Shown in pieces: positions 17,465 through 34,154 of a stretch of 34,154 nucleotides of DNA. Origin of the DNA: Thermoproteota archaeon. Its GTDB lineage: Archaea; Thermoproteota; Bathyarchaeia; RBG-16-48-13; GCA-020355125. Position 1 is the first letter of the stretch; the number at the start of each line of letters is the position of its first letter. The notes under the pieces are model-generated. The model saw only the letters and a list, made by a program, of their open reading frames with translations. It had not been told where the DNA came from and ran no database searches. Both the position numbers and the translations under genes were made by a program. Location of the stretch: NCBI GenBank assembly GCA_030837285.1, contig JAUPKU010000144.1:1-34154 (forward strand), read 5' to 3'.

Positions 17465-18277
17465 TCAGCTTATCCTTGTTGCTGCTTTTAGTCTACACGT
17501 TCTATCTTTCAGTTCCTCAACAATCTTGTCAATGTTATCAAGATTCTTCTGGACAATATTCACGAGAGAGCTACCGACTATGGCACCTTCAGCACCATTC
17601 CGGATTATTGTTTCTATTTGAGCAGGATTAGAAATTCCAAATCCGACAGCAAGTGGTATTCTCCCTTTAGTATAATGTAGAAAACTCCTTAGTAATTCGA
17701 CTGTGGAATCTGAGATTTCTTCTCGTACTCCAGTGACACCGAAAACGGAGACGAGATAAAGGAAGCCGGAAGTATAGTTGAGGATTTTGAGCAACCGATC
17801 TCTTGGCGTTGAGGGCGAGGCGAGGAAAATTGTATTTATTTCATGATCTCTTGCGATAGTTATGTAGTCACCTGCTTCTTCGATTGGTAAATCAGGAACT
17901 ATTGTGCCGTCTACACCACTATCTTTAGCATCTGCAAAGAAGTTCTTAAGGCCCATCTTGAAGACGGGATTATAGTAGGTGAGTAGTACAATGGGGATAC
18001 TATATTTGGCTTTGATTTTTGAGACTAAAGAGAACACTGTTTGGGGTGTGGTTCCGGATTTGAGCGAACGAGCTGAGGCTGCTTGAATCGTCGGACCGTC
18101 AGCGATCGGATCGGAGAAGGGAATTCCGAGTTCTATAATATCAGCACCGCCTTCCACTAGAGCCTCCACGATTTTACTTGTGTATTTGGGATGTGGGTCT
18201 CCCGCCATTATATATGCTATTAGAGCGCCCTCATTTTCTACTTTTAGATGGTTGAAGACATCTTCTATGACGCTCAT
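17465..18277 (-). CDS. trpA: Tryptophan synthase alpha chain
   Basis: A 270-residue TIM barrel that cleaves indole-3-glycerol phosphate to indole and glyceraldehyde-3-phosphate; indole then passes to TrpB. The catalytic residues are E49 ([13 protein letters not shown]) and D60 (IADGPTIQ), at exactly the numbers of the Salmonella enzyme. The phosphate-binding loops near [12 protein letters not shown] and GAIVGSSLV are present. It is the last gene of the trp operon, and its ATG overlaps the trpB stop in ATGA. Confidence 0.98.
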
Positions 18278-19473
18278 ATCCTCACCCCGGTATAGTCAGC
18301 AACTACCTCAACGTCTTTGTCCCCCCTTCCGGAGAGGGTAACTACAACTATCTGATCGTTCTTCATTGCTTGACATTGCTTCATTACGAAAGCTATTGCA
18401 TGCGACGATTCCAGGGCAGGAAGTATTCCTTCAGTCTTCGAAAGTTCTAGGAATGCGTTTACTGCTTCTTCATCATTGACTGTGATGAAGTGAGCTCTCT
18501 TGACTTCCTTTAGAAAAGAATGCTCAGGTCCAACTCCAGGATAATCTAAGCCAGCGGAGATACTATGGGTATCTTGTATCTGACCCCATTTATCTTGGAG
18601 GACGTATGTGAGCATTCCATGAAATACACCTTCATCTCCGAAGCATATTGAAGCAGCATTCTCTCCAGCTCCCTTTCCTTTCCCTCCAGCTTCTACACCA
18701 TAGAGCTCAACATCCATGTCGTCTAGGAATGGATAGAAGGTGCCTATTGCATTGCTTCCCCCTCCGACACATGCAACAAGCGCATCTGGAAAACGTTTCT
18801 CTTTTAATAGGATCTGTTCTCTGATTTCTTTGCCTATGACGCTTTGCAAATCTCTCACAATTAATGGATACGGGTGGGGACCGACGACCGAACCTATGAG
18901 GTAATACGTAGTCTGGACATTGGTTACCCAATCTCTTAGAGCTTCATTTATAGCATCCTTCAATGTCTTAGAGCCAGATTCTACAGGGTGTACGTCGGCT
19001 CCAAGGAGACGCATTCTGTAGACGTTAAGACGCTGTCGCTTCATATCTTCTGAACCCATGTATATCTCTGCTTTCAATCCGAGAGTGGCACAAGCCATTG
19101 CAGTGGCTACACCATGCTGACCCGCGCCAGTCTCAGCAATCACTCTCTTCTTGCCCATCCTCTTAGCAATAAGCGCTTGACCGAGGGTATTATTAATCTT
19201 ATGAGCGCCTCCATGGGCTAAATCTTCGCGCTTCAAGTATATCTTCGGTCCTCCTACCTTCTTTGTCAAATTCTCCGCAAGGTAAAGGGGCGTTGGTCTG
19301 CCTGCATACTCTGACAGATAATATGAGAGTTCCTTTCTGAAAACTGGATCGTGTTTAAGCATATCATAGGTCTCTGTCAACTCTTCAATAGCAGTCATGA
19401 GTGTTTCTGGAACGAATTTACCCCCGTATTTCCCGTATTTTCCATCAACAGGATATTGACTAAAATTTGTCAT
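18274..19473 (-). CDS. trpB: Tryptophan synthase beta chain (TrpB1 type)
   Basis: A 399-residue pyridoxal-phosphate enzyme that joins indole and serine to make tryptophan. The PLP lysine is K92 in [10 protein letters not shown]; the catalytic acid is E114 in AETGAGQHG; the phosphate loop is [10 protein letters not shown]. The N-terminus ([14 protein letters not shown]) and the length mark the TrpB1 form that pairs with TrpA, rather than the longer stand-alone TrpB2. Translation is coupled: ATGA overlaps join it to trpF upstream and trpA downstream. Confidence 0.99.
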
Positions 19474-20123
19474 AATCCGACTTCCTTTGCGTTTTTAATA
19501 AAATGAAAAACCTTATCAGAATCTTTCCTTCCACGGTGTGATTCAACACCACTTGAAACGTCAACCGCATATGGGCGAACCATTCGTATAGCATCAGCTA
19601 CATTTTCAGGCTTTAACCCGCCAGCGAGGATCAAAGGTTTAGGACTTAGCACCTCTCTAAGCAACCAAGAAAAGTTCCAATCATGAGTTTCCCCTGTTCC
19701 ACCATAACAACCTTGTAAAAAAGTATCAACAAGTAAAGCGTCGAAGAACTTCGCTTCTTCTACTATATCTTCTATAGCACTTTCATCTTTCACTCGAATA
19801 GCTTTTATCAGCTTAAGATGAGGAAACTTCTCGTGAACTGTGGCAATATCTAATTGAGCATCACCATGAATTTGAACAGCATCTGGGCGGACTAGTTCAC
19901 AGAAATCGAGAAGAGAACGTGTGTCGTCTGGAACTGTTACGACAACACCCTCTACAAAAATGGGTATGAGGCGCATCAATCTTTCAGCATTCTTCAAGGA
20001 TAGATTTCGAGGAGAAGTAGGAACGTTCACGATGAATCCGACAGCGTCAGCCCCTCCATTTATAACCGCCATTAAATCTTCTTGACAAGTTATACCGCAG
20101 ATTTTCACTTTAGTCAGTGTCAA
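19470..20123 (-). CDS. trpF: Phosphoribosylanthranilate isomerase
   Basis: A 217-residue TIM barrel catalysing the Amadori rearrangement of N-phosphoribosylanthranilate to CdRP. VKICGIT with the catalytic Cys, [19 protein letters not shown], and the catalytic Asp in [20 protein letters not shown] are visible, as is [10 protein letters not shown] near the C-terminus. Two starts are possible: TTG at 20121-20123, overlapping trpC by 14 bases, or GTG at 20106-20108, two bases after the trpC stop codon. Neither has a convincing Shine-Dalgarno. It shares an ATGA overlap with trpB. Confidence 0.97.
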
Positions 20124-20895
20124 AACTATTCACAAGCTCCCTTACCTTCGCTTCAATATCCGATGAACTCATGATTGAGGAGCCTACGAGAAAAGCTCTA
20201 ACACCATATTTGAAGAGATTACGAACGTCAGAAGCATTCTCCACACCACTCTCACTTACTATGATTTTGCCTTTTGTAGATGAATTCTCCATAATTTCCT
20301 GAGTTGTCTTCAGGTCAACTTTTAGAGTTCGTAGGTCTCGATTATTTATCCCCACGAGGTCAGCATCACTATCCAAGGATGAAGAGAATTCTCTAAGCGA
20401 ATGAGATTCCAAAAGTACTTCAAGATTCTTTGAGTGAACGTACTCAATCATGGTATTGACATCACATTCGCAGCGATCTCGGTCAAATAATGTCTTTATC
20501 AAAAGAACAGCATTAGCGCCAATTCTAGAGGCTGCATCAACCTGCACGAAGCTTACTATGAAGTCTTTCATAAGTAAGGGAAGACTGACCTGTCTTCTCA
20601 CCTTAATGAAATAGTCTAAAGAACCATGGAAGTAGTTAGGCTCAGTCAACACTGAAATTCCAGTTGAGCCCCCACTCTGCATAGCCAATGAAACTTTGTC
20701 GACATCCATACTCTCTTTTATTACGCCTAGAGAAGGTGAAGCTGCTTTAACCTCAGTTATAATCGGAACTCTCTCGCATCCTAGGATAGCTTCTCTGAGA
20801 CTCCGCATGTTTGAAATTGACTCTTCGACGTAATAGTAGCCTTCATTAACCCTTCGCTTTGCGTCTTCAGCGAATCTGTCTAGTAGGTCAACCAT
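20110..20895 (-). CDS. trpC: Indole-3-glycerol phosphate synthase
   Basis: A TIM barrel of about 261 residues that closes the indole ring by decarboxylating CdRP. Active-site segments follow the Sulfolobus enzyme: ITEVKAASPS (Lys), LLMKDFIV (Lys), LLIKTLF, LEVLLESHS (Glu), LVGINNRDL (Asn) and VSESGV (Ser). The ATG at 20893-20895 is preferred over the GTG/TTG-type start 51 bases upstream, because it gives a normal N-terminus and an 8-base overlap with trpD, and it has a GAGGAGGT about 11 bases upstream. The longer version would overlap trpD by 59 bases. Confidence 0.97.
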   Translation of the reverse strand: MVDLLDRFAEDAKRRVNEGYYYVEESISNMRSLREAILGCERVPIITEVKAASPSLGVIKESMDVDKVSLAMQSGGSTGISVLTEPNYFHGSLDYFIKVRRQVSLPLLMKDFIVSFVQVDAASRIGANAVLLIKTLFDRDRCECDVNTMIEYVHSKNLEVLLESHSLREFSSSLDSDADLVGINNRDLRTLKVDLKTTQEIMENSSTKGKIIVSESGVENASDVRNLFKYGVRAFLVGSSIMSSSDIEAKVRELVNSFDTD

Positions 20896-21940
20896 ACCTA
20901 GATTCGACCTCCTCAAACGTAGCAATATCTCCACAAGCCTTGACAAGTTCTCTTAGCTTCCCGTAAGCTGCACCGCTTTCGATGGATTTTCTGGCTATCT
21001 CAAGGCCTTCATTGAAGTCTGATGCCTTGCCACCAACTATGACACCTGCAGCGGCATTAACTAGGACAATATCTTTTTTCGATCCAGCAATCGAATTGTT
21101 CAGAATCTTGTAGCTGAGCTCCGTATTGTATTCTACACTGCCACCTTGGATCTCCTCAATCTTGGCTTTCTTTAAGCCAAGAGATTCTGGAGAAACATTT
21201 AGGAGAGCGATATTTCCCTCACTCAGCCAGGCAATCACGGTTCTTCCAGTGATTGTAATCTCATCAAGACCATCAAGCCCGTGGACAATCATAGCCTCTT
21301 TGCAACCAAGCTTCCTCAGAACCAAGGACAAAGGTTCCACAAGGCTCTCATCATACACTCCTAGAATCTGCGTATCTGCACCAGCAGGATTCGTCAAGGG
21401 TCCAAGAATGTTGAAAATAGTTCTAACACCCGTTTCTCTACGCGGCGCGGAAACATTCCTCATCGCCGGATGGAAGGAAGGCGCGAATATAAATCCTATG
21501 CCAGAATCTTCTATCGTTTTTTCAACAATCTGTGGATCAGAGTTTAGGTTTAAGCCAAGTCTCTCAAGTACATCTGCACTACCGCATGCACTTGTGATTG
21601 AGCGATTCCCATGCTTAGCGATATTAACTCCTGCACCAGCCACTACGAAGGCAGCTATTGTACTGATATTGAAAGTATTCATTCGGTCTCCTCCTGTTCC
21701 ACATGTGTCAAGCAGTCTTCCATTTACTATAGGGTGAATTCTACGACAGAATTTCCTCATTGCAGTAGCGAAAGCTGCAATTTCGTCTGTAGTTTCACCT
21801 TTCATCCTAAGAGCAATTAAGAGCGCAGCAATCTGTGCGTTTGAAGCTTTACCTGACATAACCTCCTCCATTGCATTATCTGCCTCATCAAAGGATAAGT
21901 CTCTCCTCTCAACGAGTTTTTGAATACATTCCTTGATCAT
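20888..21940 (-). CDS. trpD: Anthranilate phosphoribosyltransferase
   Basis: A 350-residue enzyme that transfers phosphoribose from PRPP to anthranilate. The PRPP-binding motif is DTCGTGGDRMNTFNIS, followed by the anthranilate-site segments KHGNRSITSACGSADVLE and FAPSFHPAMRNV, and the Mg-binding GLDGLDEIT. The N-terminal helical domain (1-70, with SNAQIAALLIALRMKG) is complete. It is stand-alone, not fused to TrpG. Its ATG overlaps the trpG stop in ATGA. Confidence 0.98.
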   Translation of the reverse strand: MIKECIQKLVERRDLSFDEADNAMEEVMSGKASNAQIAALLIALRMKGETTDEIAAFATAMRKFCRRIHPIVNGRLLDTCGTGGDRMNTFNISTIAAFVVAGAGVNIAKHGNRSITSACGSADVLERLGLNLNSDPQIVEKTIEDSGIGFIFAPSFHPAMRNVSAPRRETGVRTIFNILGPLTNPAGADTQILGVYDESLVEPLSLVLRKLGCKEAMIVHGLDGLDEITITGRTVIAWLSEGNIALLNVSPESLGLKKAKIEEIQGGSVEYNTELSYKILNNSIAGSKKDIVLVNAAAGVIVGGKASDFNEGLEIARKSIESGAAYGKLRELVKACGDIATFEEVESRYG

Positions 21941-22527
21941 CTTTTAGAGCCTCCGTCGATGAAATTTTTCATAATCTTCTTTCCCTCGCTAGTAAGAATC
22001 GATTCTGGGTGAAATTGAATTCCATCTATCGGATAGATTACGTGTCTAATGCCCATGACTTCTCCATCATCATGCGAGTAAGCTGACACCTCAAGGCAGC
22101 TGGGAAGCGATTTCTCATCGCAAACTAAGGAATGGTAACGAGTCGCAGTAAAGGGGTTAGGAATGCCCCTGAAGATCCCTTTACAATCATGGTGAATCTG
22201 GCTTGTCTTTCCGTGCATGAGTTGTTTCGCCCTTACTATCTTCCCGCCAAAAACATGAGCTATTCCTTGATGCCCAAGACATACTCCTAGAGTAGGAGTC
22301 TTAACGCTTAGACTCTGTAGAATCTCCGAGCAAACGCCGAAAAATCTAGATTCTTCGGGGTTACCTGGACCTGGAGAGATTATTATTCTATCTGGTTTTA
22401 ACTTCAGTGCTTGTCCAGATGTGATCTTGTCATTTCGGTATACAATTGGTCTTCCTCCCAGTTCTCCTATATACTGTACGAGATTGTAGACGAACGAGTC
22501 ATAATTGTCGATTACAAGCGTCTTCAT
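21937..22527 (-). CDS. trpG: Anthranilate synthase glutaminase subunit
   Basis: A 196-residue class I glutamine amidotransferase that delivers ammonia to TrpE. The catalytic triad is C83 (TLGVCLGHQ), H173 and E175 (IQFHPES). VIDNYDSFVYNLVQYIGELG at the start and ISPGPGNPEES near residue 50 are typical of TrpG/PabA. Its direct coupling to trpE (ATGA overlap) and place in the trp operon favour TrpG, though such subunits can also serve PabB. Confidence 0.98.
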   Translation of the reverse strand: MKTLVIDNYDSFVYNLVQYIGELGGRPIVYRNDKITSGQALKLKPDRIIISPGPGNPEESRFFGVCSEILQSLSVKTPTLGVCLGHQGIAHVFGGKIVRAKQLMHGKTSQIHHDCKGIFRGIPNPFTATRYHSLVCDEKSLPSCLEVSAYSHDDGEVMGIRHVIYPIDGIQFHPESILTSEGKKIMKNFIDGGSKR

Positions 22528-23931
22528 GTCTTTCGCTCTCCTGAGTCTTCTAGTGCTCTGATTAGAGCTTGGGCTTTATGATCAGTCTCTATCCACTCAT
22601 TTTCTGGAACGGAATCAGCCACAATTCCTGCACCAACTTGGATGTGAGCCTTTTTCCCATCCAGTACAAGAGTTCTTATAGTAATTGCGAAGTCAGAGTT
22701 GCCATTATACGAAAAGTAGCCAACAGCGCCAGCATAGGGTCCTCTTCTCATAGGTTCTAATTCTTCGATAATTTCCATAGCCCTTACTTTTGGCGCTCCA
22801 GATACTGTTCCAGCTGGGAAGACAGCTTCTAACGAATCGAAGCTGTCACAATCGGCTCTCAATCTACCTACGACTCTTGAGACAATGTGCTGGACGTGAC
22901 TGTATTGCTGTACCCTCATGAATTGGGGTACACTAACGCTTTCAAATTCGGAGACTTTCCCTATGTCGTTTCTTGCTAGATCAAGCAGCATTGTGTGCTC
23001 CGCTCTCTCCTTTGGATCTTCTAACAATTCTTTTGTCAAAGCCTGATTTTTTCTAGAATTGCTAACGTGAGGCCGAGTACCCGCTATAGGAAAAGTCTCT
23101 ACAGTTTTTCCTTCGAGTCTTACAAGCATCTCCGGGCTAGAGCCTATTATCTGCCGCTTATCCATCTTAAGGAAGTACATGTAAGGTGAAGGGTTTATTC
23201 TTCTGAGGGATTCATAAAAGGTAGTCATGTCCCCTTTCATAGTAAAATCGAAGCGCTTTGAAAGGACAACTTGGAGTATATCCCCTGTGGTAATGTAGTC
23301 TTTTGCTTTTAGAATAGCATCTTCAAAGTCTTCTTGGGTGATGTTTGGCTTAGGTTCAGTATGATTGGTTGTGGAATGATCTACGCGATTCTTCATTAAT
23401 TCTTTGATTTCAGTGAATCTATCTTTGGTGTAATAATAGTAAAAAGCTTCCTTGTTTCTGTGATCAAAGACTATACCATCATCGTACATTCCGAGTTCAA
23501 TGTCTGGGAAGTTGGAGTCATCAAAGGATTTTTCTGGGAGTTTCTCCCAGTAGCGGACAGTATCATAAGAGATGTAGCCAACAGCTCCTCCGACGAATCT
23601 AAGTCCTTTATAGGGTAGATAATGCTCAGTGAAAATCTTTTTTATTGCTTGAAAAGGGGAAGTAACATCTTCATTGATGCTATTTCCTTCCACTTGGGTA
23701 GTTAGGTTATCTGCATGAATTTCAATAGTCGATTGTGGGTCAAACCCTATGAAAGAGTAGCGGGCTAGTTTTCTTGGTCCTTCTATTGACTCAAGTAGAT
23801 AGGCGTATTTGTATTCGCTATAAATCTTTGAAAAGATTTCAAAGGGTTGATGGGAGAAGGGAAATCTTCTGACGTTTAATTTGTGTTGCTGCTGTATTGC
23901 ATTATTTTCTTGGCCAAAGGCGATACCCCAT
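22524..23931 (-). CDS. trpE: Anthranilate synthase component I, with apparent +1 frame change near its 5' end
   Basis: It makes anthranilate from chorismate with TrpG. The chorismate-binding domain is intact (PSPYMYFLKM, IGSSPEMLVRLEG, GTRPHVS, LLDLARNDIGKV, FPAGTVSGAPKVRAMEII). The first canonical start in this frame is GTG 23691-23693 (389 residues), but the frame upstream encodes the standard N-terminal domain: LNVRRFPFSHQPFEIF, then YAYLLESIEGPRKLARYSF, which includes the LLES motif of tryptophan feedback inhibition. That open frame runs back to a TAG at 23943-23945 without ATG, GTG or TTG. An ATG at 23929-23931 with GAGGAG six to eight bases upstream begins a 9-codon ORF one base out of frame; a +1 shift at CTT TGG (23914-23919) joins the two into about 467 residues, a normal size. 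Alternatives are an assembly indel or a non-canonical start. Identity is certain; the 5' structure is not. Confidence 0.95.
23902..23931 (-). other. trpE leader ORF / candidate +1 frameshift site at a Trp codon
   Basis: The ORF reads MGYRLWPRK and stop TAA. Its Shine-Dalgarno AGAGGAGAT (23936-23944) has ideal spacing. The only Trp codon (23914-23916) lies in CTT TGG C, preceded by GGGGTAT; the E. coli prfB site is AGGGGGTAT then CTT TGA C. Slipping from CTT to TTT places the ribosome in the trpE frame (GGC CAA GAA AAT...). By analogy, scarce charged tRNA-Trp would stall on TGG and favour the shift, raising TrpE. This is inference from sequence shape; a one-base assembly error would explain the layout too. 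Confidence 0.4.
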
Positions 23932-30105: not shown

Positions 30106-30618
30106 TTAATTCTTCGGTTTTTTAATGAATTTCCAGTATAAGTAAAAGCCCATTATCGCTGAGAGAATGAGGGCGGCGCTGAGTATATACGGTAAATCGT
30201 CACTTCCAACGTTTATTGACCGAGTCTTTGATGTTGAATTGGCGTTTGAAGAGGTTACTGTAACATTCAGATCGTGGATTCCAATGCTGATTGCCTTGAG
30301 GTCGAAATTTACTGTCTGGCTGCCTCCAGTGGGAAGCGTTCCAATAGTTTTTGTCGATTGAAGAACCTGTAAGCCTTGTGCGACTATTGAAACTATGACA
30401 TCAGTGGCGTCTTCTCCTCCAGTGTTGTTGACGACACATGTTGCCGTCAGAGAGTTCCCAACATATGATACGGGCTTATCCACGGTCAAGGAGTTGATGC
30501 TCAGTTGGGGAGTGGAACTGATTGCGCTTACTGCTTGGGTTACGAGGCTTAATGAGAGGAATAGGAGTATCGCACCAATTAATAGAGACTTTTTTAATAT
30601 CAAATTGAATCCCTGCAT
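30106..30618 (-). CDS. CARDB-like surface protein with C-terminal membrane anchor
   Basis: A 170-residue exported protein. A signal peptide (about 1-32, KKSLLIGAILLFLSLSLV then TQAVSA) is followed by one Ig-like CARDB/NPCBM-type beta domain (LSINSLTVDKPVSYVGNSL, CVVNNTGGEDATDVIVSI, TGGSQTVNFDLKA, GIHDLNVTVTSS). A C-terminal membrane helix (PYILSAALILSAIMGFYLYW) and a KFIKKPKN cytoplasmic tail follow. Several Asn-X-Ser/Thr sites could be glycosylated. ATG at 30616-30618 is chosen because a TATA box (30643-30655) lies about 30 bases upstream, indicating a nearly leaderless mRNA; the frame to 30678 would add a non-signal segment. It faces away from the NosL-like operon across 400 bases; a joint role in the envelope is only a guess. 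Confidence 0.75.
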   Translation of the reverse strand: MQGFNLILKKSLLIGAILLFLSLSLVTQAVSAISSTPQLSINSLTVDKPVSYVGNSLTATCVVNNTGGEDATDVIVSIVAQGLQVLQSTKTIGTLPTGGSQTVNFDLKAISIGIHDLNVTVTSSNANSTSKTRSINVGSDDLPYILSAALILSAIMGFYLYWKFIKKPKN

Positions 30619-31017
30619 GGATTTAGAACAGAAATATTGGATTATGAATATATCTATTATGGTCAATGACTCTGCCATTTAGAGGGTTAAGAGATTTGCG
30701 CCTGGAGAGTTAATAGCAGTTAATCCATGCTTCATGTTTCTTGTTTTCAGACTTATCACAGTAAAATATGTTTAATATCACATTTTTCCAAGGAAAATTG
30801 CTTATCAATCTCAGTTAAGTGTTAAAATATAGTCGAATTTATCTTCTTTTTTCATTTCTTTGAGATTCAAATGCTTCAGCCCTCAAGTCACTATCCATAA
30901 TTTGTCTTACTTTGCTTTAAGGGTATTAGTAGGATGTAGCAAGAAGATGAGGAAAAAAGATTGTTGTTGTGAAAGTACAATCACACACGCTTAATACAAT
31001 TCTTGAAAAAGAGAATA
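30619..31017. promoter_or_regulatory. 399-base divergent promoter region, CARDB protein / NosL-like operon
   Basis: On the minus strand AGATATATTCA (about 30643-30655) is the likely TATA box of the CARDB gene. On the plus strand GCTTAATAC (30989-30997) lies about 25 bases before ATG 31018 and may drive the NosL-like operon as a leaderless message. GTGAAAGTACAATCAC (30970-30985) is a small interrupted dyad directly upstream and could be an operator. The middle, AT-rich and without open frames, shows nothing I can name. Confidence 0.35.
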
Positions 31018-32109
31018 ATGGCTATTCTGGTGAAGGATATGACAAAAACGTATACAAAAAAAATGTATATTTTAGTTGTTCTGCTAACAATTACAATTCT
31101 TTTATCCACAGGCTTTTCTTACACGGCGCTGGCTCAGACTGGCAGTGAGAACAAGACCTGCGAACAATGTGGTATGGTTGTTGACTCTGTTTCACAGAAG
31201 CATCTTAAGGTCGTTGATGCAAAAGGCACACTTCACTACGTCGAATGTTTAAAATGTGCGTTTAAACTGGTTCCCAAGTTAGGAGAGCTTAACGTTACAA
31301 CGTACTGCGACTGGTACGGACAAAATTATGCTATTACAATAAGCCTTGCAGATCATCTAAATGTAGTCATAGTAAATCCCTCAGATGCGATGTTCATTGA
31401 TGGAAACTGCATGAAGAACCGTGTGAATTACAATCAAACCGCTGTAGACGACTTGCTTGCCAACAAAGGAATCTCAGTCTACCTAGCAGCTATACAGAAC
31501 GTTACAATACCTTCAAACTCAACCGTAATGACTGTGGCTAAAGCAGCGGCAAAATACGCCTTCAGCCCAACCTTATCATCAAAGACTTGTGAAGCTTGCA
31601 TGATGAACGTTACGTCAGCTGAACAGGAGAAATACAAGATAGTTGACGAAAACGGGACAACCCACTATTGCGAGTGCCTCATGTGCTCAATGCGTCTGCT
31701 TAGCAAGTACAACAAGGTCAACATTACCACCTTCTGCGACTGGTATGGACAGAACTATCAGATCACAATTACATCCTCGCAATATGGAAGAGTCATCACC
31801 GTCAGTCCCTCCACAACAATGTATCTAAGTGGCGGAAGTTGTGTGACAAACAGAGTTGCCTACAACCTGACTGCGGCTGACGCGCTTAAGAAATACGGCT
31901 TTTCATCGCTATATACCGTACCTGAGCAACACTTCGTGATGCCAGCACAGACGACCATAACATCTGTTAAAGATGCAGCGACGACTTCTGTAGGGAACGC
32001 TTCAGACTCCTCATCTCAGCCTCCCATCCTCCTCATTGTTGCCACTGTGGCTGGAGTAGCATTAATAGTTGCTGCACTTGTAGCTTACATAAGAATGAAA
32101 CGCTCATAG
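31018..32109 (+). CDS. Membrane-anchored protein with two tandem NosL/TRASH-like cysteine domains
   Basis: A 363-residue surface protein: signal peptide (about 17-39, ending SYTALA), two homologous cysteine domains, a Ser-rich linker and a C-terminal membrane helix (about 336-358) with basic tail. Domain 1 has C48-x2-C51-GM, C77-x2-C80, C97 and C131; domain 2 has C191-x2-C194, C220-x2-C223, C240 and C275. The offsets are 143 residues, except 144 for the last, so this is an internal duplication. Shared blocks include YCDWYGQNY and NRVNYN/NRVAYN. C-x2-C-G-M is the NosL signature for binding Cu(I), and the paired C-x2-C sets recall the TRASH metal domain. About ten Asn-X-Ser/Thr sites suggest heavy glycosylation. 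ATG 31018 is preferred (TATA at 25 bases); TTG 31003 and ATG 31039 (GGTGAAGG upstream) are alternatives. It heads an operon with an FtsX-type permease. The metal is inferred. Confidence 0.8.
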   Translation: MAILVKDMTKTYTKKMYILVVLLTITILLSTGFSYTALAQTGSENKTCEQCGMVVDSVSQKHLKVVDAKGTLHYVECLKCAFKLVPKLGELNVTTYCDWYGQNYAITISLADHLNVVIVNPSDAMFIDGNCMKNRVNYNQTAVDDLLANKGISVYLAAIQNVTIPSNSTVMTVAKAAAKYAFSPTLSSKTCEACMMNVTSAEQEKYKIVDENGTTHYCECLMCSMRLLSKYNKVNITTFCDWYGQNYQITITSSQYGRVITVSPSTTMYLSGGSCVTNRVAYNLTAADALKKYGFSSLYTVPEQHFVMPAQTTITSVKDAATTSVGNASDSSSQPPILLIVATVAGVALIVAALVAYIRMKRS

Positions 32110-32129
32110 AGATGAAGTGAGGCTAGAAC

Positions 32130-32924
32130 TTGATAATCAATCTATTTGTCGCTGTTGATTTGGCAATAGCCTTATTTGGCCTGGCTGTTGGCTCCTACGC
32201 TGCCTTCAAGGCTTATAAAATTGGAGAAAGTGAAAGAACTGCAGCCAGTGAAGAACGCTACGAGTTAGAAAAGGACTTCTACCTAGTTTCGACGGTAGGT
32301 TGGATGACTCTGGGAACTCGACTCTTAGCGATACCTCTTTTTTGGTTCACGGTCTTATCGTTGATTCCTTCTGTTCCAGGTGCTATGTGCGAATTCGGCG
32401 TCTTCCAAGCAGGTGCGCCTTGGTCTTGGGCTGATTTAGGGCTGAAGCTATTCACTGTGTTCACTTTTGGCGGTTGGCTCTTCTTTGACTTCATGAACAG
32501 AAGACTGAAGGGTTCTATGTTTATGGGTTCGGTTTCTCGGGGATTTGTTCTATTGATGCCAATCCTTTTCATAGATGCATCTCTTGACTTGGTATTTTTC
32601 AGCTCGTTGCAGCCTTTGGTCGTCCCCTGTTGCATGGTTGTGTACTCGAATACTGCTGTAGGATTATTTAATATCGGCTGCCCCTTCTGCTTCATAACTT
32701 ACCAATACCCGTTACTGTGGGGTGTTCTGGCCGTCTACGCTGTTTCAGTAGGGCTTATAATCTGGAGTTTCTTTTTCCGAAGGTCTTCACACAATATGAG
32801 TGGAGTTCAAAAAGAAATCCTTCCATCTATGAGAAAAGTTATATTGATAAGTGTAATTTTAGCAGTCGTTGGCACAATGCTGCTTTTGACACAGATTGGA
32901 TTGGGGTCTTTTAGCAATGTATGA
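32130..32924 (+). CDS. Polytopic membrane protein with C-x2-C motif, unknown function
   Basis: A 264-residue membrane protein with about six hydrophobic segments (roughly 3-28, 51-80, 103-123, 138-160, 196-217, 236-257). Five cysteines are visible: C87, the pair C167-C168 (VVPCCMVVYS) and C184-x2-C187 (NIGCPFCFITY). The last four lie in the stretch between the fourth and fifth segments, where they could form a redox pair or bind metal. This recalls DsbB/VKOR-like disulfide proteins, but the motif spacing does not match and I do not assign it there. TTG at 32130 has GTGAGG seven bases upstream. It lies 20 bases after the NosL-like gene, in the same operon. Confidence 0.75.
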   Translation: MIINLFVAVDLAIALFGLAVGSYAAFKAYKIGESERTAASEERYELEKDFYLVSTVGWMTLGTRLLAIPLFWFTVLSLIPSVPGAMCEFGVFQAGAPWSWADLGLKLFTVFTFGGWLFFDFMNRRLKGSMFMGSVSRGFVLLMPILFIDASLDLVFFSSLQPLVVPCCMVVYSNTAVGLFNIGCPFCFITYQYPLLWGVLAVYAVSVGLIIWSFFFRRSSHNMSGVQKEILPSMRKVILISVILAVVGTMLLLTQIGLGSFSNV

Positions 32925-32986
32925 TACTTCAATTCAAACTTTACACGACCTGAAGATCTATGCGATTATGTCCTGAGGTCTGTAGT

Positions 32987-33478
32987 TTGAAACTTAAAAG
33001 ACTCTTTTTAGTTGAAATTGCTTCAATTATCATTATTATTGTGTCGGTTATGTTTTTCATCAAGATGACACCTTATCTTGCGTCTACAGAACCTGACATG
33101 TCGATAGGAGTCTACAACCAGAGAGTATTTACCGAAGACACTCTTACATTGGAGTCTGGGCAAATGGCAAGCACTGAATTCAATTATTCAACTTTCGATC
33201 CAGCAATCCTAGTTATAGACTTGATGTTTCAGAGTTGGCAAACTCCAGGAGACTTGTCGGTATACTGCAATGGAATACTCATAGCCACAATACGCGCTAT
33301 ACCAGGCAATCCAACTGTGCGGTTGACTTCGATTTCTGTTTCTGGCTGGGACTGGGTACAACCACCATCAGTCAACTCACTTGCTTACAGTAATCAGATT
33401 TCCTTTGTTTCTGAGCCTAACTCGGGCTTCGAAGGTACTTTCACTTATCAAATTGGCATAAGAGGTAGCCGAGGATAA
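32987..33478 (+). CDS. Membrane-anchored extracytoplasmic protein, unknown function
   Basis: A 163-residue protein with a short basic N-terminus (MKLKRLF), one membrane helix (LVEIASIIIIIVSVMFFI) and an outside domain of about 135 residues rich in strands and aromatic or small residues (DTLTLESGQMASTEFNY, LSVYCNGILIATIRAI, SISVSGWDWVQPP), suggesting a beta sandwich. TTG at 32987 is preferred: GAGG lies eight bases upstream, the same pattern as the gene before, whereas ATG 32960 has no Shine-Dalgarno. The stop overlaps the next ATG by one base (TAATG). It has a single Cys in the exported part. I do not recognise the family. Confidence 0.7.
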   Translation: MKLKRLFLVEIASIIIIIVSVMFFIKMTPYLASTEPDMSIGVYNQRVFTEDTLTLESGQMASTEFNYSTFDPAILVIDLMFQSWQTPGDLSVYCNGILIATIRAIPGNPTVRLTSISVSGWDWVQPPSVNSLAYSNQISFVSEPNSGFEGTFTYQIGIRGSRG

Positions 33479-33780
33479 TGAAAATTAAAACATTCATGTC
33501 GATAACGATTATATTGCTTGCATTTGTGTTTACATCATGTCTAGTTAGCGAAATCGTTTGGTCAACTAAAGCAAATAGCCCTGATACCCTACGCCAGATT
33601 GTTGGGCTGCCTAGCATAGCTATTGGGAATCTTAATCCTTCAGTTAGGAACCCTGGACTTGAATTCTTCTGCACCTCGCTTTATGATGTTCCTGGCGGCT
33701 ACTGCTACTACTTTGCGCCGGGGGTGCCTGCAACCAATTTCACTATTTATTGTAACAGCATAAGGAGTGACAACAAATGA
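33478..33780 (+). CDS. Small exported or membrane-anchored protein, unknown function
   Basis: A 100-residue protein with an N-terminal hydrophobic segment (FMSITIILLAFVFTSCLVS), which could be a signal anchor; TSC at its end resembles a lipobox, though weakly. The outside part has three more cysteines (FFCTSLY, GGYCYYF, IYCNS), so disulfides or metal binding are possible. It overlaps its upstream neighbour by one base and the next gene by four (ATGA), so it is tightly coupled in the operon. YCN also occurs in the preceding protein (VYCNGI), hinting at a shared fold. No family recognised. Confidence 0.68.
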   Translation: MKIKTFMSITIILLAFVFTSCLVSEIVWSTKANSPDTLRQIVGLPSIAIGNLNPSVRNPGLEFFCTSLYDVPGGYCYYFAPGVPATNFTIYCNSIRSDNK

Positions 33781-34154
33781 GGCGATTCCGGAATCTTTTA
33801 AACTACGCCTTGAACTGCATACAGAGATACAGAATCAGAACCATCGTCATCCTAGTTTGCTTAGGGGTTTCCGCTTCAGTTTTCTCTTCGATTGCTTTTA
33901 TTAAGGATGGCTTGACTGCTCAGGGTGTCTTGAGCCTGAAGTATGCCCCAGACATTACGGTCCAAGGCATATCAAACGGACGTCAAACACCCGTGGACAT
34001 AAGTAATGTAGGTTATATTCAGGAGGCCCCAGGAGTAAGCCTGGTTGAGGAGCGGATATGGGGTTACGGCAACATCGGAAATACGCTCCTCGTTATTGTA
34101 GGAATTGATGTGGCAAACCCAATGCTGAATCAGTCAAACGCGTTTCCATTAGAA
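33777..34154 (+). CDS. FtsX/MacB-type ABC transporter permease, N-terminal part (cut by window edge)
   Basis: An open frame of 126 codons from ATG 33777 to the end of the window. The ATG is seven bases after AAGGAGTG and overlaps the previous stop in ATGA. It begins with a basic segment (MRRFRNLLNYALNCIQRYRI) and one membrane helix (RTIVILVCLGVSASVFSS), then an outside domain with APDITVQGISNGRQTPVDIS, EAPGVSLVEERIWGYG and LLVIVGIDV. This is the layout of the MacB periplasmic-core/FtsX permease family. An ATP-binding partner is expected downstream. Its place behind the NosL-like gene suggests export or delivery linked to the cysteine proteins, loosely comparable to NosDFY-L clusters. Confidence 0.8.
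   Translation, partial: MRRFRNLLNYALNCIQRYRIRTIVILVCLGVSASVFSSIAFIKDGLTAQGVLSLKYAPDITVQGISNGRQTPVDISNVGYIQEAPGVSLVEERIWGYGNIGNTLLVIVGIDVANPMLNQSNAFPLE

Follow-up and report, generated by a model that had tools for sequence, protein, structure and literature searches.

The copper chaperone NosL, which acts with NosDFY in the insertion of copper into nitrous oxide reductase, the organomercurial lyase MerB and the TRASH domain have been published as structural relatives (PMC8261052, PMC7558416). In NosL proteins of clade II, a CxxCxM motif is thought to bind Cu(I) (PMC6530538). For MerB, the title of a study cited in PMC8261052 (Wahba 2016) states that a mutant at the active-site aspartate binds copper. 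A selenocysteine-assisted organometallic (SAO) system with the components SaoL, SaoX and SaoP has also been named (Haft & Gwadz 2023, as cited in PMC13188914).

Here, an archaeal operon with the genes A to F is described, which is tentatively read as an extracytoplasmic relay for a soft metal, most likely Cu(I), serving to load or protect external metal-dependent or thiol-rich proteins (probability about 0.4). The gene set is present in one group of methanogens and a few relatives, is conserved there and was previously undescribed; no account of it was found in the open-access literature.

Layout of the operon and its continuation on the next contig

The window, which is the whole stretch of DNA analysed, comprises 34154 bases and represents an entire contig. 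An ORF scan identified five co-directional genes on the forward strand, A to E, all coding for envelope proteins, which run up to the contig edge (Table 1). An operon of five envelope genes on one strand, close to each other or overlapping, had already been proposed in a sequence-only reading of this DNA, and this was borne out by the intergenic gaps of +20 (A/B), +35 (B/C), -1 (C/D) and -4 bases (D/E). Gene A starts either at the ATG at 31018 or at an in-frame TTG upstream at 31003. The proteins contain 13 (A), five (B), three (C), four (D) and, for the completed E, two cysteines.

Table 1. Coordinates of the genes and protein features in the window
Feature	Position	Strand	Description
Gene A	31018..32109	+	predicted membrane-anchored extracytoplasmic protein, two copies of a MerB/NosL-superfamily domain
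A, N-terminal hydrophobic segment, residues 21-39	31063..31119	+	putative signal or anchor, from hydropathy
A, domain 1	31159..31560	+	CxxCGM, CxxC (C82, C85), C102, C136
A, domain 2	31588..32007	+	CxxCMM, CxCxxC, C245, C280
A, C-terminal transmembrane segment, residues 342-360	32026..32082	+	
Gene B	32130..32924	+	membrane protein, about six helices, outside known families
B, C87	32388..32390	+	PGAMC loop, no K/R, predicted outside
B, C167-C168 and C184-P-F-C187	32628..32690	+	second outside loop (predicted)
Gene C	32960..33478	+	small N-terminally anchored protein, without Pfam match
Gene D	33478..33780	+	small N-terminally anchored protein with RNP...YD(V/I)PGG motif
Gene E, 5' third	33777..34154	+	FtsX/MacB (LolC/E-like) ABC permease; remainder on contig C24 (L050:1-943)

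The last 121 bases of the window (34034-34154) are identical to the start of the next contig, C24, of the same genome. This contig completes E to 399 residues, and the E parts on both contigs are 66% and 75% identical to E of a Bathyarchaeota relative (L014). The overlap is evidence, though no proof, that the two contigs are adjacent in the genome, and the amino-acid continuity of E with that of the relative is further evidence. Gene E is followed by gene F, which overlaps it by 4 bases and codes for a predicted ABC ATPase of 220 residues; with this, the ATPase expected beyond the contig edge was found. After F, the opposite strand carries a 114-residue ORF and genes for a multicopper oxidase of the Tat type, a TrmB-type regulator and an ammonium transporter; the oxidase gene is convergent with the operon and 523 bases beyond F.

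Conservation of the genes extends to distant archaea, where homologs of C, D and E are found beside B (HMM E-values of 7.7e-9, 5.9e-22 and 1.1e-32 for the copies in the window), so that the arrangement is not due to chance. Scans for consensus promoters and terminators gave nothing above chance. A divergent gene with a CARDB domain (30106-30678) was rejected as a part of the system, since it has no match to G, a small protein found after B in methanogens and Hecatellales, and since TatC holds its place in L014. G itself was not found in the window.

The encoded proteins

The two domains of A score 317 against each other with BLOSUM62, while 500 shuffled sequences reached at most 57, showing that the duplication already noticed in the first protein is real. 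Among 16 A-domain sequences, C10, C13, M15, C39 and C42 are invariant and C94 nearly so, with C10, C13 and M15 forming the CxxCxM motif (constant in 16/16). An AlphaFold model of domain 2, based on 15 related sequences in addition, was confident, with a mean pLDDT of 89.8 and values of about 90+ across the domain. In a Foldseek comparison of this model with the PDB, all 11 matches at E <= 0.001 were MerB structures, matched along the whole domain, with a best E-value of 2.8e-5 and TM values of 0.46-0.53 over the 11 matches; no NosL entry was present among the 50 matches listed. The Pfam MerB profile (PF03243) matched 8 of the 16 A-domain members weakly, one relative being above the cut-off (28.4 over 27) and the domains of the window below it. 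The profile of SaoL (NF040728), the MerB-like protein of the SAO system, matched three members, with 28 bits compared to a curated cut-off of 140.

For profile comparisons with hhalign, the MerB set consisted of a sequence identical to PDB 1S6L and six plasmid MerBs, and the NosL set of seven proteins. A and MerB were aligned over about 100 columns with E-values of 2.4e-4 to 2.5e-3 and scores of 27.6-33.2, while shuffled A alignments scored at most 16.4. With NosL, scores of 22.6-24.2 were obtained in two of three queries, and the aligned part was confined to 11-25 columns at the CxxCGM motif. In the MerB alignment, the CxxC cysteines of A fall on C96 and D99, a cysteine thereby taking the position of the catalytic aspartate, while the cysteine of the CDWYG motif falls on C117 and that of SC..NR on C159 or C160. 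Judged by sequence and predicted fold, the domain body of A is MerB-like and lies outside the NosL family; by alignment, A retains MerB-type cysteines without the full catalytic set of MerB and carries the CxxCxM motif in addition.

In the sequence-only reading, the domain had been called NosL/TRASH-like, and a search with the Pfam NosL profile (PF05573) had been suggested. This profile gave zero matches in the window's own genome or in the proteins. The name is correct at the superfamily level, since NosL, MerB and TRASH are relatives by structure, and it agrees with the presence of CxxCxM; it does not describe the domain body, for which both Foldseek and hhalign pointed to MerB.

B contains five cysteines, C87, C167, C168, C184 and C187, which are invariant in 19 sequences. 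The loops carrying them are predicted to be located outside, since they are free of Lys and Arg, which the alternate loops contain (positive-inside rule); the structure model of B is unreliable precisely in these loops. Nothing above the cut-offs was found for B in Pfam or NCBIfam, there was no PDB match by sequence and no significant one by fold, and B is a new family. Fold matches to cytochrome oxidase subunit III were weak (E about 0.5) and were taken as helix-bundle noise. No copy of B was found on plasmids.

The CxxC pairs in A and B, the vicinal CC in B and the perfect co-occurrence of both genes would also be expected if A and B formed a membrane-bound external oxidoreductase pair for thiol/disulfide chemistry, with C to F serving another step. 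This is considered improbable, because B matches neither thioredoxin, DsbB, VKOR nor another known membrane family by sequence or, significantly, by fold, and its modelled Cys loops are poor, while the invariant Met in the CxxCxM motif of A is better explained by metal binding.

C and D are homologous across the compared loci and match no family in Pfam, so that all three middle proteins are outside known families, as had been stated before. The lack of known relatives which could fix the roles of B, C and D counts against a relay, as does the unmatched Pfam NosL profile. For the last two proteins, E and F of L014 were matched by FtsX (45 bits) and MacB_PCD (40 bits) and by ABC_tran (127 bits), respectively; by sequence, E and F are a permease and an ATPase of the FtsX/MacB type, which confirmed the permease assignment made from the window. 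In NCBIfam, E matched LolC/E (E 3.3e-18; score 65.8, curated cut-off 362) and F matched LolD (8.4e-57; score 192, curated cut-off 308). Although both scores are below the cut-offs, they raise the question whether the pump is of the Lol/MacB type and moves lipoproteins or peptides, A and B then being envelope proteins unrelated to it. Of all explanations considered, this one is regarded as the least likely, since, wherever a locus has enough flank, the pump genes accompany B and since archaea are without an outer membrane for Lol export.

Distribution and gene neighbourhood

When contigs from 84,980 species were scanned, B was identified in Methanomethylicia, Hecatellales and one Bathyarchaeota, while an initial contig scan with over-specific patterns for A had revealed no relatives. 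Among 398 genomes of the phylum, 19 contain B, namely 17 of one family, all with mcrA, the window's genome (G000) and G168; mcrA is present in 27 of the 398 genomes, 17 of which contain B. The window's genome is without mcrA, which ruled out the system as a methanogenesis enzyme set. A was present in 22 of the 22 B-bearing genomes tested, consisting of 17 MCR-bearing Methanomethylicia methanogens and five Bathyarchaeia or Hecatellales, and in none of three tested methanogens of the family without B, and among 61 relatives examined A and B were in the same three genomes; as only a sample of genomes was covered, as B-linked loci had served to construct the A query and as relatedness makes genomes non-independent, these counts give the association but not its strength. 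In the genus containing Methanosuratincola, A is unlinked from B, with a distance of about 115 kb in G259, and both genes were retained; that the co-occurrence holds even at this separation argues for a relay. Where the flank is long enough, C-D-E-F are found at most about 4 kb away from B and are mostly divergent from A-B-G; on the Hecatellales contig G029:C5, they are about 7-9 kb away from B.

In L014, TatC lies upstream of the operon, the gene order being TatC-A-B-C-D-E-F, and two multicopper oxidase genes come 467 bases after F. In the window's genome, one gene separates the multicopper oxidase from F. A downstream search for a cuproprotein gene had been suggested, and such a gene is present in both genomes; their neighbouring oxidases are not close homologs. 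Since only 20 of the 257 genomes of the class contain a multicopper oxidase, two such adjacent cases in two genomes are unlikely to be accidental, with the restriction that n is two and that both operons may descend from one. Together with the CxxCxM motif, these neighbours favour copper as the metal in Bathyarchaeia. Cu-oxidase_2 was not found in 22 methanogens, including all 17 with A and B, nor in G168, G029 and G045, so that the oxidase link is restricted to two of the five Bathyarchaeia/Hecatellales genomes and includes no methanogens. A multicopper oxidase as the general client was rejected for the methanogens on these grounds, and since the methanogens carry the system without one, delivery to a cuproprotein does not generalise so far.

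In the Hecatellales loci, TfrB/HdrD-like proteins are encoded among the neighbours, and A and B also lie beside genes for a SaoP-like permease, a SaoX/SsuA-like binding protein, a corrinoid protein and MtaA; the Sao-like and corrinoid methyltransferase genes count against copper. They instead suit a detoxification of organometals or heavy metals, in which the external MerB-like A would capture, and perhaps cleave, methylated or other organic metals from methylcobamide chemistry, while B and the ABC pump would clear the metal or repair its targets. Owing to the MerB body of A and the methylcobamide-rich hosts, the main carriers being methyl-reducing methanogens, this is the strongest of the rival explanations, and the likeness of A to MerB and to the SaoL profile over the whole domain, with cysteines at C96, C117 and C159, agrees with it. 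It is nevertheless rated as rather unlikely: the catalytic Asp99 of MerB is a cysteine in A, the SaoL score is far under its cut-off, CxxCxM is a feature of NosL and not of MerB, and the surroundings of the copies from Bathyarchaeia revealed neither Mer nor Sao genes.

In one methanogen locus (L015), genes for CbiM, CbiQ and an ABC ATPase come after F in the same orientation, and the same layout was identified in L025, L026 and L028. These cobalt/nickel genes beside F also count against copper, and, with carriers that are mostly methanogens, they would agree with a scavenging of nickel or cobalt for F430 and corrinoids, in which the operon would supply a CbiMNQO transporter. However, this neighbourhood is limited to a single methanogen clade, the neighbours in the other methanogens vary, the copies in Bathyarchaeia adjoin multicopper oxidases, and the thiolate-rich sites are better suited to soft metals; nickel or cobalt scavenging is thus held to be very unlikely. 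A heavy-metal P-type ATPase by the operon in L016 and L020 was rejected, since the long proteins encoded there are AAA ATPases.

A possible metal relay and its relation to known systems

Starting from the observed gene content, conserved cysteines, MerB-like fold, A-B co-occurrence and multicopper oxidase neighbourhood, we infer metal binding, topology, hand-over and client of the soft-metal relay, with the following sequence of steps. The membrane-anchored A would bind a thiophilic metal by the cysteines of the CxxCxM, CxxC and C159-like positions in its MerB-fold domain, as suggested by alignment and model, and the two domain copies would provide two metal sites in Bathyarchaeia. B might hand the metal onward or keep its own five external thiols reduced. 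By analogy to NosFY with NosD and NosL, the ABC pair E-F with the anchored C and D may carry out an ATP-driven conformational hand-over. The probable client is the Tat-exported multicopper oxidase encoded next to the operon in the window's genome and in L014. The cysteine of A at the D99 position agrees with a binding of copper, given the copper-binding mutant of MerB at the active-site aspartate cited above (Wahba 2016, by its title).

More broadly, it is possible, with odds a little short of even, that a MerB-fold protein with the copper motif of NosL, the five-Cys protein B and an FtsX-type pump form an undescribed archaeal metal-handling complex, occurring in most of the sampled MCR-bearing Methanomethylicia. 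If this is true, A would be the missing link between the MerB lyases and the NosL chaperones, an intermediate between two families whose kinship was so far based on structure alone, and the system would be part of the metal or organometal physiology of methanogens. With B, C, D and G, new families are named for a conserved trait of Methanomethylicia, and since the gene set is present in cultured methanogens (Methanosuratincola), its role can be tested there.

Compared to the known systems, the locus shares with NosDFYL a small, membrane-anchored domain of the copper-chaperone type with CxxCxM, an ABC permease and ATPase, anchored external partners and, nearby, the gene of a copper protein. It differs by the MerB-like domain body of A, which the NosL profile misses, by the FtsX/MacB type of its permease and by the additional B with six helices and five cysteines. 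The neighbouring genes examined on contigs C23 and C24 include neither NosZ, as had been noted, nor a NosD-like gene, for which a downstream search had been suggested, and nothing links the system to N2O reduction.

With MerB (PF03243; PDB 1S6L, 3F0O), A has in common the fold, a colinear core and the positions of C96, C117 and C159. Unlike MerB, a soluble cytosolic enzyme, A is membrane-anchored and predicted to be external, has a cysteine at D99, an extra CxxCxM and, in Bathyarchaeia, a duplication, and neither MerA nor MerR was seen near it. The SAO system is resembled in the Hecatellales loci, where an SsuABC-type ABC importer is encoded next to a MerB-like protein; here, no Sec was seen and all scores are far under the curated cut-offs, and the SAO components that PMC13188914 names include neither B, C or D nor the FtsX-type pump. 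By their families, E and F belong with the mechanotransducing ABC systems of the MacB, LolCDE and FtsEX type, from which the locus differs by its new, small and anchored partner proteins C and D and in that neither an outer membrane nor a lipoprotein cargo is expected. Outside the cell, the system probably deals with a soft metal, for example copper, and we take as its common element the Cys-rich external site of A, a Cys-rich membrane protein and an ATP-driven pump, which may work as a relay in the manner of NosL with NosDFY.

Genes surrounding the operon

The gene for a secreted CARDB-domain protein with a C-terminal anchor does not belong to the conserved unit. Judged by ORF reading only, the window also appears to encode a complete tryptophan biosynthesis operon. 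In L014, the locus of a Bathyarchaeota relative, a multicopper oxidase of 715 residues is followed by an oxidase-like protein of unusual size (1278 residues), containing inserted repeat-like stretches (GGGGTGA...). For the 114-residue ORF in L050, on the next contig of the window's genome, no match was identified in a Pfam search.

Coordinates of neighbouring features
Feature	Position	Strand
trpE, G, D, C, F, B, A (in this order; ORF reading only)	window 17465-23693	-
CARDB-domain protein gene, divergent, upstream of A	window 30106-30678	-
1278-residue multicopper oxidase-like protein	L014:16647-20480	
114-residue ORF, just after multicopper oxidase	L050:1769-2113	-

Genomes containing mcrA

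Neither A (MerB-like domain) nor B (six helices, five cysteines) was found by searching three mcrA-containing genomes of the methanogens' own family (G268, G275 and G405). Since two of these are 97-98% complete, the absence is probably real there. Divergent MCR alpha matches (E about 1e-20), possibly alkyl-CoM-reductase-like, were identified in G296 (contig C3), G429 (C112), G400 (C212) and G395 (C23), with a normal mcrA adjoining in G296 and G429.

Hecatellales loci

In the Hecatellales loci L007 (genome G045) and L009 (G029), A-type proteins occur alongside ABC transport components resembling SaoX/SaoP; MtaA, a corrinoid protein and a TfrB/HdrD-like protein are encoded there as well. These loci may represent a methyl-transfer pathway or an archaeal cousin of the selenocysteine-assisted organometallic (SAO) system.
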